Source: Aequorivita sp. HC6-5
GTDB taxonomy: Bacteria > Bacteroidota > Bacteroidia > Flavobacteriales > Flavobacteriaceae
Direction: 5' to 3'
Assembly: GCA_905182755.1 (NCBI GenBank)
Contig: CAJJCS010000005.1
Coordinates: 186,001-250,000, forward strand
DNA length: 64,000 bases
The notes beneath the pieces were generated by a model. The model ran no database searches. It was not told the origin of the DNA and worked only from the letters and a program-made list of their open reading frames with translations. This document shows, one piece after another, positions 2,097-49,830 of this stretch (position 1 is its first letter; each line of letters opens with the position of its first letter). The translations under genes were made by a program, and so were the position numbers.

Positions 2097-2104
2097 TATT
2101 TTTG
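2097..2104 (+). promoter_or_regulatory. Candidate -7 box for rpsO
   Basis: TATTTTTG fits the Bacteroidota -7 consensus TAnnTTTG and lies 57 bp before the rpsO start. No TTG is seen at the usual -33 distance, so the promoter is tentative. Confidence 0.45.
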
Positions 2105-2161
2105 CACCCGAATTATGATAGACATAATTCATACATAAAAATCATTTACAAAAATATTAGC

Positions 2162-2431
2162 ATGTATTTAGATCCAAAAGAAAAACAAGAGATTTTCGCA
2201 AAGCACGGAAAATCTGCAAAAGACACTGGTAACACAGAAGGTCAAATTGCATTATTCACTTACAGAATTCAACACCTTACGGGGCATTTGAAAGCAAACC
2301 ACAAAGATTACAACACAGAGCGTTCTCTAGTGATGCTAGTAGGTAAGCGTCGTTCTTTATTAGACTATCTAATGAAAAAAGACATTTTACGTTACAGAGC
2401 AATTGTAAAAGAATTAGAATTACGTAAATAA
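2162..2431 (+). CDS. rpsO: 30S ribosomal protein S15
   Basis: Small-subunit protein that binds 16S rRNA helices and helps build the central domain of the 30S subunit. The 89-residue product MYLDPKEKQEIFAKHG... has the family's length and motifs: DTGNTEGQIALFTYRI, LTGHLKANHKD and VGKRRSLLDYL. The reading frame is open upstream to 2102, but the family start MYLDP and the normal length select the ATG at 2162. It is followed by its own terminator and then pnp, the conserved rpsO-pnp order. S15 represses its own messenger in several bacteria; the leader here was not matched to a known operator. Confidence 0.97.
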   Translation: MYLDPKEKQEIFAKHGKSAKDTGNTEGQIALFTYRIQHLTGHLKANHKDYNTERSLVMLVGKRRSLLDYLMKKDILRYRAIVKELELRK

Positions 2432-48266: not shown

Positions 48267-48380
48267 AATGCTTTGGTGTATGTTACTACAAATATTGCAA
48301 ATAAAATTCTTATTCGAAGGATGTTACTGCAAACTCGCGAGGCAATTTGCATTAAAGTTTTTTAATCTTAAACAAACATG

Positions 48381-48388
48381 TACCTTTG
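48381..48388 (+). promoter_or_regulatory. -7 box for metK
   Basis: TACCTTTG fits TAnnTTTG; transcription would begin about 48395, just before the riboswitch aptamer at 48399. Confidence 0.6.
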
Positions 48389-48398
48389 CTTTATAATT

Positions 48399-48497
48399 AA
48401 GAGGAAAGATTTGACTGCTTGCAACCTCTTTCTGAAATATATATTTCAGAAAAAAAATTCTAAATTACCTTTAGAGTTTAAATGCTAAATCAGTGAA
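48399..48497 (+). ncRNA. SAM-II riboswitch upstream of metK
   Basis: The core matches the SAM-II (metA-type) aptamer: P1 AAGAGG (48399-48404) / CCTCTT (48425-48430), enclosing GATTTGACTGCTTGCAA. The 3' element TAAATGCTAAATCAGT lies at 48479-48494. Its CAGT (48491-48494) can pair with ACTG (48414-48417) as the pseudoknot. Between P1 and the 3' element there are about 48 extra nt, including a perfect hairpin CTGAAAT/ATTTCAG (48432-48449). SAM binding here would report the product of MetK, the next gene. Confidence 0.88.
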
Positions 48498-48538
48498 TTG
48501 CACTTTTTGCAATCTTCTGTGGACCCTAGGTCAAATCT
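48497..48538 (+). promoter_or_regulatory. Probable expression platform of the SAM-II riboswitch
   Basis: GTCAAATCT (48530-48538) is the exact complement of AGATTTGAC (48407-48415) in the aptamer loop, so it can unfold the ligand-binding core. It can also sit in a small GACC/GGTC hairpin (48522-48532). A second hairpin, ATTGCA/TGCAAT (48497-48513), lies between. No T-run follows, so control of translation or RNA decay is more likely than termination. Confidence 0.6.
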
Positions 48539-48573
48539 ACCCTATTTTACTAAAATCATTAAACCCCATTTAT

Positions 48574-49830
48574 ATGGCGTATTTATTTACCTCAGAGAGT
48601 GTTTCTGAAGGACACCCAGACAAAGTTGCAGATCAAATAAGTGATGCACTTATAGACAACTTTTTAGCCTTTGACCCTAAGGCTAAAGTAGCTTGTGAAA
48701 CCCTTGTAACAACGGGCCAAGTTATATTGGCAGGAGAAGTAAAAAGCAGTGTATACCTAGATGTTCAAAAAATTGCTCGCGATGTTATCAATAAAATTGG
48801 ATATACTAAAAGTGCATATCAATTTGACGGAAACTCTTGTGGAATACTTTCTGCAATACATGAGCAATCTAGTGATATTAACCAAGGCGTAGATAAAACA
48901 AATCCCGAAGACCAGGGTGCTGGTGACCAAGGAATGATGTTTGGTTATGCTACAGATGAGACAGAAAACTTCATGCCTTTAGCCCTAGATTTATCTCATA
49001 GGCTACTTATTGAACTAGCACAGTTGCGTAGAGAAGAAAAAGATATTCCTTACCTAAGACCTGATGCAAAATCTCAGGTAACTATTGAATATTCTGATGA
49101 TAATATACCGCAAAGAATAGATGCTATTGTAATTTCAACCCAACATGATGATTTTGACAGTAACGATACGCGCATGTTGGAAAAAATAAAAGAAGATATT
49201 ATTACTATTTTAATTCCGAGGGTTATAGCAAAATTAAAACCAAACATACAGGCTTTATTTAATGATGCTATTACATACCATATCAACCCAACAGGAAAGT
49301 TTGTAATTGGTGGTCCTCATGGAGATACGGGTTTAACTGGACGTAAAATTATTGTAGACACCTATGGCGGCAAAGGAGCTCATGGTGGTGGTGCTTTTTC
49401 TGGAAAAGACCCAAGTAAGGTTGACAGATCTGGAGCTTATGCTACAAGACATATTGCTAAAAATCTAGTTGCTGCCGGGCTTTGCAAAGAAGTTTTGGTT
49501 CAAGTTTCTTACGCCATTGGTGTTGCAGAGCCAACTAGTATTAACGTAGATACCTATGGAACATCTAATGTGAAACTAACAGACGGGGAGATTAGTGAAG
49601 TTGTTGAAGGCCTTTTTGACATGCGCCCTTATTTTATAGAACAACGCTTAAAGCTGCGCCAACCAATGTATAGCGAAACTGCTGCATATGGACACATGGG
49701 CCGTGAAAACAAAGTAGTTACCAAAACCTTTACCATACCTAATGCCAAAAGCAAAACAATGGAGGTAGAACTGTTTACCTGGGAAAAATTAGACTCTGTA
49801 GAAAAAGTTAAAAACGCATTTTCTTTATAA
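48574..49830 (+). CDS. metK: Methionine adenosyltransferase (SAM synthetase)
   Basis: Makes S-adenosylmethionine from methionine and ATP. The 418-residue product starts [20 protein letters not shown], with the catalytic His-Pro-Asp. It also has the metal site [15 protein letters not shown], then [21 protein letters not shown] in two blocks, and [19 protein letters not shown]. The frame opens at 48493, but that part is the riboswitch leader. A SAM-II riboswitch in the leader implies feedback repression by SAM. A terminator follows. Confidence 0.97.

Follow-up and report, generated by a model that had tools for sequence, protein, structure and literature searches.

Riboswitch aptamers of the SAM-II class, which respond to S-adenosylmethionine (SAM), include a variant named "SAM-II long loops", which a passage of Weinberg et al. 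2010 (PMC2864571) gives for Bacteroidetes and marine sequences. How SAM-II elements exert control had not yet been established experimentally according to a passage of a 2007 survey (PMC2258182). Among the titles and abstracts returned by our searches of open-access literature, we found no description of an anti-aptamer in SAM-II leaders of Bacteroidota. To our knowledge, riboswitch action in this phylum has been little worked out. Here we describe the leader of metK, encoding S-adenosylmethionine synthetase, in a window of 64,000 nucleotides (nt) from Aequorivita sp. HC6-5 (contig CAJJCS010000005.1), where an earlier note had recognized a SAM-II riboswitch with a distant anti-aptamer strand. 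The reading that we prefer, with a probability of roughly two in three, is a SAM-responsive OFF switch for metK composed of a SAM-II long-loop aptamer and a strand-exchange expression platform. A second RNA strand probably keeps metK on when SAM is scarce. As far as our searches show, the platform appears to be new, on a known aptamer, and its response to SAM is predicted.

As judged from sequence and folding, the metK leader carries a SAM-II long-loop aptamer, which we infer to bind SAM. The covariance search (cmscan against Rfam) was significant, matching RF01726 (SAM-II long loop) at 48395-48473 with 54.9 bits (E 9.1e-8), above the curated gathering score of 44. The stem P1 and the conserved GATTTGAC..TTGCAA core are both present, loop 1 (L1) and the 3' element can form the pseudoknot P2 (ACTG/CAGT), and the gene downstream, metK at 48574, belongs to SAM metabolism. 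P1, the core, the 3' element and the CTGAAAT/ATTTCAG hairpin all lie where the earlier note had put them. The model alignment sets the 3' element on A-rich insert sequence (about 48451-48473); we take it to be at 48480-48494 because this segment supplies the P2 strand CAGT. The loop extending from P1 to the 3' element covers 50 nt (48430-48479) and holds two hairpins. Thus, the long insert pointed out earlier is real, although it is not novel since "SAM-II long loops" is already an Rfam variant (RF01726). The aptamer itself is ordinary for Flavobacteriaceae: RF01726 matches are found in 373 of 397 sampled genomes of the family (358 above the cut-off) and in 10 of 11 genomes of the genus. Among ten leaders from the genus, P1 is unchanged throughout and P2 is kept in 82.5% of alignment cells. 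The stem of the first inserted hairpin (48432-48438/48443-48449) is paired in 73.8% of cells and the second hairpin in 89.9%, with one pair of the latter seen as U-G, C-G and U-A; the second hairpin is missing from L006, L007 and L009. Two of these leaders, L006 and L007, have RF01726 above the cut-off before metK and keep the anti-aptamer described below, and the P2 strand CAGT is absent from both; they may be altered or decaying switches.

The platform begins with a strand between the aptamer and metK. A letter-by-letter check confirmed that the nine bases of GTCAAATCT (48530-48538) are exactly complementary to 48407-48415, so that the window contains an anti-aptamer complementary to the L1/P2 strand. 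Fourteen copies of GTCAAATCT occur on both strands of the 1.89-Mb genome, including the anti copy and the aptamer core (10 for the reversed control); at this density, chance would supply about 0.0003 copies in the 79 nt from aptamer to ATG. The leader (48398-48590, 193 nt) folds with -41.7 kcal/mol (z -4.28), which none of 200 dinucleotide shuffles reached, and both the minimum free energy (MFE) and centroid structures contain the long-range anti-aptamer helix.

The anti-aptamer is also widespread in relatives. Leader loci with the core GATTTGACTGNTTGC were collected from the genus search, named metK loci, top Rfam and pattern matches and 80 more regions across genera; they were drawn among the matches listed, and the anti strand was not a selection criterion. 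In agreement with the association with metK claimed earlier, 147 of 151 distinct core-bearing loci precede metK with SEGHP; by our reading, the other four comprise two altered metK and two metY-like genes. Four records of the 147-leader set are outside the family or unplaced (L025, L044, L051 and L089). GTCAAAT is found between aptamer and ATG in 87 of the 147 leaders, mostly 26-46 nt before ATG. When any target in the aptamer 5' strand is admitted and the two leaders without the GCTAAA element are excluded, perfect complements of at least 8 nt are present in 100 of 145 metK leaders versus 5.0 expected from dinucleotide shuffles, and those of at least 9 nt in 75 versus 1.4. In an alignment of 60 leaders of the GGCAGT type, seven bases of GTCAAATC show conservation of 90% or more, and the eighth, a T, never varies. 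Among the ten genus leaders, 98.9% of the cells of the long-range helix are paired, and GTCAAATC with the following ACC is invariant. These counts, together with the covariation described below, bear out the earlier proposal that GTCAAATCT is an anti-aptamer.

In leaders with other cores (n=58) the signal is lower, with at least 8 nt in 17 versus 7.0 expected and at least 9 nt in 7 versus 2.2; three of these (L146, L164 and L184) seem to match the pattern by chance and were excluded from subsequent sets. Nineteen of the 58 are outside Flavobacteriales by title, and among them 8 nt is reached in two and 9 nt in none. Thus, our claim for the anti-aptamer is restricted to Flavobacteriaceae. A different anti strand may be present in L051 (Bacteroidales, with a complement of at least 8 nt) and in L054 (a Chryseobacterium record, with the 10-nt TGCAATCAGT). 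GCAATC(A) or TGCAATCAGT, found in L092, L097, L054, L019 and L022, has its complement in the aptamer's GATTGC side and not in GATTTGAC, and is possibly a second kind of anti-aptamer; in L019 and L022 such complements are not above their own shuffles. Two related small genomes (L110 and L224) have SAM-II before what we read as a metY-like gene, with GTCAAATC downstream, indicating that the anti strand is not confined to metK leaders.

Because the aptamer core is nearly invariant, only its flank is able to covary with the anti strand. At the base preceding GATTTGAC (position -1), 67 of the 82 leaders with A have T in the anti strand, and 20 of the 32 with G have C. Watson-Crick matches at this position number 87 versus 61.4 +/- 4.0, a value reached by none of 5000 permutations (116 leaders; the 31 of 147 under the score cut-off do not enter the covariation and tree counts). 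On a tree of metK coding starts, both sides change along seven branches versus 3.25 expected (p 0.017), and in five of the seven one Watson-Crick pair is swapped for another. Anti strands also match their own aptamer strand better than foreign ones, by 7.70 versus 6.11 nt in 182 leaders with 29 distinct strands (Wilcoxon 8e-22) and by 6.60 versus 5.51 in 30 leaders with rare aptamer strands (p 0.001), in statistics that are not corrected for shared ancestry. Among individual leaders, L232 is the strongest case: its aptamer GAATAATTTGGTC faces a perfect 13-nt complement, GACCAAATTATTC, downstream.

Three further parts accompany the anti-aptamer, the first two of which, like the second inserted hairpin, had gone unmentioned in the earlier note, whose listed parts are all present. 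The first is a second trap, a hairpin that uses the P2 3' strand and for this reason excludes P2. Within the genus, one of its pairs changes from G-C to A-U in 2 of 10 leaders. Pairing of the P2 3' strand with the segment just downstream scores at least 6 in 92 of 180 leaders versus 17.2 expected, with one mismatch allowed. In leaders of the GGCAGT type the trap hairpin has the form AAGGCAGU-GNRA-ACUNCCUU; 44 of 56 have the GNRA loop, and the trap base opposite C is T in 36, C in 9, A in 4 and never G (the 49 of 60 leaders having AACTNCC). The second part is a hairpin that may mask the 5' part of the anti strand. A masking stem of at least four pairs, mostly GACG/CGTC, is present in 57 of 91 anti-strand leaders versus 12.2 expected; within the genus only 65% of its cells are paired, and L010 has no such hairpin. 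The third part, found in a subset of relatives, is a stem of at least eight pairs ending 0-9 nt before AUG (25 of 180 leaders versus 3.5 expected; at least nine pairs in 18 versus 1.0). The 25 stems represent 19 distinct ones, two of which (L013 and L118) are plain A/T runs. Seventeen of the 25 hold at least 7 nt of the anti strand in their loop (2.6 expected), and in 20 the 5' arm has at least 5 nt complementary to the aptamer 3' strand, a count weakened by the shuffle control of 10.9. Examples are ACTTCTTTAG..CTAAAGAAGT, 2 nt before ATG in L036, and GTTGCTTTTA..TAAAAGCAAC, 5 nt before ATG in L094. Pre-AUG copies of the aptamer 3' strand of at least 6 nt occur in 30 of 180 leaders versus 10.1 expected. 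The complementarity of the 5' arms to the aptamer 3' strand suggests that one strand could pair with either of two partners, the aptamer or the pre-AUG copy. As it is only 6 nt long and lies in AT-rich sequence, AAATCA at -21 in the window was not counted as such a copy.

Comparison among relatives thus supports a candidate platform through the aptamer, the conservation and some covariation of the anti-aptamer, the second trap, the masking hairpin and, in a subset, the pre-AUG stem. Under the preferred reading, in the absence of SAM GTCAAATCT(ACC) would pair with the L1/P2 strand of the aptamer, giving the anti-aptamer state, while the P2 3' strand CAGT would be trapped in the hairpin with the segment just after it, and metK would be translated. 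If SAM is bound during synthesis of the RNA, the pseudoknot would reclaim both strands. The anti strand could then be hidden in its own hairpin, GACC-CTA-GGTC, and the former partner of CAGT in the trap would be released. In relatives where the last step is readable, the stem 0-9 nt before the metK AUG would block initiation. Passages of PMC6847099 report that mRNA structure around AUG tunes translation in Flavobacterium johnsoniae, from a phylum without Shine-Dalgarno sequences; together with the pre-AUG stem, this makes SAM-bound the expected off state. For the relatives, the sequences suggest a strand relay switching translation off without a Shine-Dalgarno sequence. For the window, we infer that SAM is bound, that the switch turns metK off and that translation is its output. 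The last step is put forward here only tentatively, because this leader has no pre-AUG stem and its start pairing is unchanged between modelled states. A broader formulation, which in our estimate has barely better than even odds, is a dual-trap strand relay for non-Shine-Dalgarno initiation throughout Flavobacteriaceae. The downstream strand would be shared by the aptamer 3' strand and its pre-AUG imitation, the anti-aptamer would co-evolve with the SAM-binding loop, and SAM would decide which copy is paired; in the form seen in the window, the pre-AUG copy would have been lost or replaced.

Several observations weigh against the preferred reading. Only position -1 covaries family-wide: the signal is marginal at position -2 (64 versus 58.3, p 0.074) and absent at -3. 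On the tree, the anti side alone changes along 28 branches and the aptamer side alone along eight. In the genus leaders the long-range helix hardly varies, which precludes covariation there, and covariation measures in the 10-leader alignment are not above shuffles. A clear anti strand to GATTTGAC is lacking in 31 of 147 leaders. When metK up to 48640 is added to the leader, a fold in which metK codons pair with the core (-50.7 kcal/mol) surpasses the anti-aptamer fold (-49.4 kcal/mol) by 1.3 kcal/mol, and the probability of the 9-nt helix is then 0.03-0.10; with P1 forced and no SAM, the same stretch gives -46.3 kcal/mol. The nascent RNA would presumably meet the anti strand before the competing metK codons. 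The best pre-AUG stem of the window has four pairs, below the eight required, which places it outside the pre-AUG-stem sub-group. In models where the SAM-bound state is represented by folding with the aptamer taken out of pairing, start pairing (-10..+5) in the window is 0.61 free versus 0.60 bound. Bound and free means differ little in the class of the window (0.60/0.57, 14 leaders), and are 0.48/0.45 in 56 GGCAGT-type and 0.56/0.49 in 61 GCAGT-type leaders. Complementarity of the anti strand to the start region reaches at least six pairs in 2 of 99 leaders versus 2.7 expected, and 4 nt in the window. Thus, of the alternative fold that the earlier note proposed as a simple switch, the anti-aptamer pairing is backed, and the route from the freed strand to the start codon is not.

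In favour of the preferred reading, modelling of the SAM-bound state raises start pairing by more than 0.1 in 41 of 135 leaders and lowers it in 7, counts that have no shuffle control. Direct covering of the start region by the freed anti strand was rejected, its complementarity being at chance in the 99 leaders. Start-codon accessibility as the output of the window was likewise rejected, given no modelled change there and small class means. We also discarded the idea that GGCAGT-type leaders consistently pair their ACTTCC segment with the coding sequence of metK, as no control separates pairing from protein constraint. CCTTCG/TGAAGG-like matches near +30 to +32, which rank first in 25 of 57 GGCAGT-type leaders, were not counted because the metK codons there are fixed by the protein.

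The alternative that survives best, although we consider it unlikely, keeps the same anti-aptamer competition and makes transcription or RNA stability the output of the window, through Rho termination, pausing or RNase cleavage on the exposed single strand. Both the missing pre-AUG stem and the unchanged start codon of the window would fit it, as would passages of PMC6061858 and PMC2258182 in which SAM-II elsewhere is mostly transcriptional. However, no terminator-like site was found in 48300-48700, and hence none between aptamer and metK, in a search with Rho sites outside its scope; an intrinsic terminator was thus rejected. In relatives with a readable stem, moreover, this stem adjoins the AUG. 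A second and improbable alternative is that the anti strand merely tunes the SAM response, by setting the threshold or kinetics of aptamer folding, and that control passes through a separate start-codon structure. Such a structure is available in the small hairpin CCAT-TTAT-ATGG (48566-48577), which contains the metK start codon and is predicted in both states of the window; being the same in both, it gives no switch alone. CCAT also directly precedes ATG in L008-L010, L124, L125, L140 and L141. The least probable alternative, an ordinary SAM-II long-loop riboswitch whose downstream complement is a by-product of, for example, an antisense promoter or other conserved signal, would accommodate the near invariance of the aptamer strand, which leaves most of the helix unable to covary, and the fit of the reverse complement TAGATTTG to the promoter box TAnnTTTG (CAAATCTA read on the other strand is the box), but most relatives carry CAAATCTT or CAAATCC, which form no box, and keep the aptamer complementarity, so that we rejected an antisense promoter as the cause of conservation, and the covariation, own-versus-foreign and tree tests and the 13-nt case of L232 would stay unexplained.

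Coordinates of the metK leader features, given as positions in the window.
Feature	Position	Strand	Basis
Bacteroidota -7 promoter box TAnnTTTG, TACCTTTG	48381..48388	+	sequence
Aptamer 5' part, P1 AGAGG (48400-48404)/CCTCT (48425-48429) enclosing the GATTTGACTGCTTGCAA core	48400..48429	+	RF01726 match
Core AGATTTGAC, L1 and first two P2 bases, complementary to anti-aptamer	48407..48415	+	
First inserted hairpin in long loop, TCTGAAAT..ATTTCAGA	48431..48450	+	sequence
Second inserted hairpin, 10 pairs including one G-U, ends at 3' element	48455..48479	+	folds
Aptamer 3' element AAATGCTAAATCAGT; P2 strand CAGT (48491-48494) pairs with ACTG (48414-48417)	48480..48494	+	sequence
Second trap, hairpin ATTGCA/TGCAAT closed by CAG/CTG	48491..48519	+	MFE fold
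Hairpin GACC-CTA-GGTC, may mask 5' part of anti strand	48522..48532	+	
Anti-aptamer GTCAAATCTACC; first 9 nt exact complement of 48407-48415	48530..48541	+	
metK, S-adenosylmethionine synthetase, presumed regulated gene	48574..49830	+	open reading frame; tblastn relatives in Bacteroidota records (best 80 of 596)

The promoter box, whose consensus TAnnTTTG is as printed in a passage of PMC9723704, sits 11 nt upstream of P1. Of 147 metK leaders, 139 have it at most 45 nt ahead of the core, versus 3 for the reversed motif. This position and the leader-wide count put the aptamer probably at the extreme 5' end of the transcript, which would have its first nucleotide at the aptamer or immediately before it. 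Upstream of ATG, the metK reading frame stays open as far as a GTG at 48493 and in this form (48493-49830) spans the anti-aptamer; by comparison with relatives, the likely start is ATG 48574. Elsewhere in the window, an S15-Flavobacteria ribosomal protein leader is found at 2097-2164 (+) with 73.5 bits.

A second SAM riboswitch class, SAM-I (RF00162), shares genomes with SAM-II and even lies near the same metK (L006:1090-1221 (-) and L036:3332-3451 (+)). It is present in 6 of 11 genomes of the genus, five of which also have SAM-II, and none was found in the genome of the window (77.5% complete). A passage of the 2007 survey reports no species having both classes (PMC2258182).

From the leader alignments comes a concrete model of two states in which the pairing partners can be named, and L232 and similar natural variants provide ready-made compensatory cases. 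Compared with known systems, the closest are SAM-II long loops (RF01726; Weinberg et al. 2010), which share the core, P1, the P2 strands, the extended loop with hairpins, a SAM gene downstream and occurrence in Bacteroidota. The RF01726 model, with its 60 positions, describes the aptamer alone, and the anti-aptamer, the P2 3'-strand trap and the pre-AUG stem lie outside it. The alphaproteobacterial SAM-II (metA element, RF00521) shares the aptamer class, the proposed OFF logic and a promoter near P1, and differs from the leader of the window in that the latter has no terminator-like site that we could find. SAM-V and the translational metX SAM-II are likewise H-type pseudoknot aptamers for SAM with proposed translational control. 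According to passages of PMC6061858, the aptamer helix P2a covers part of the Shine-Dalgarno sequence in these systems, whereas the metK leaders described here would act through a distant strand exchange and have no Shine-Dalgarno sequence.
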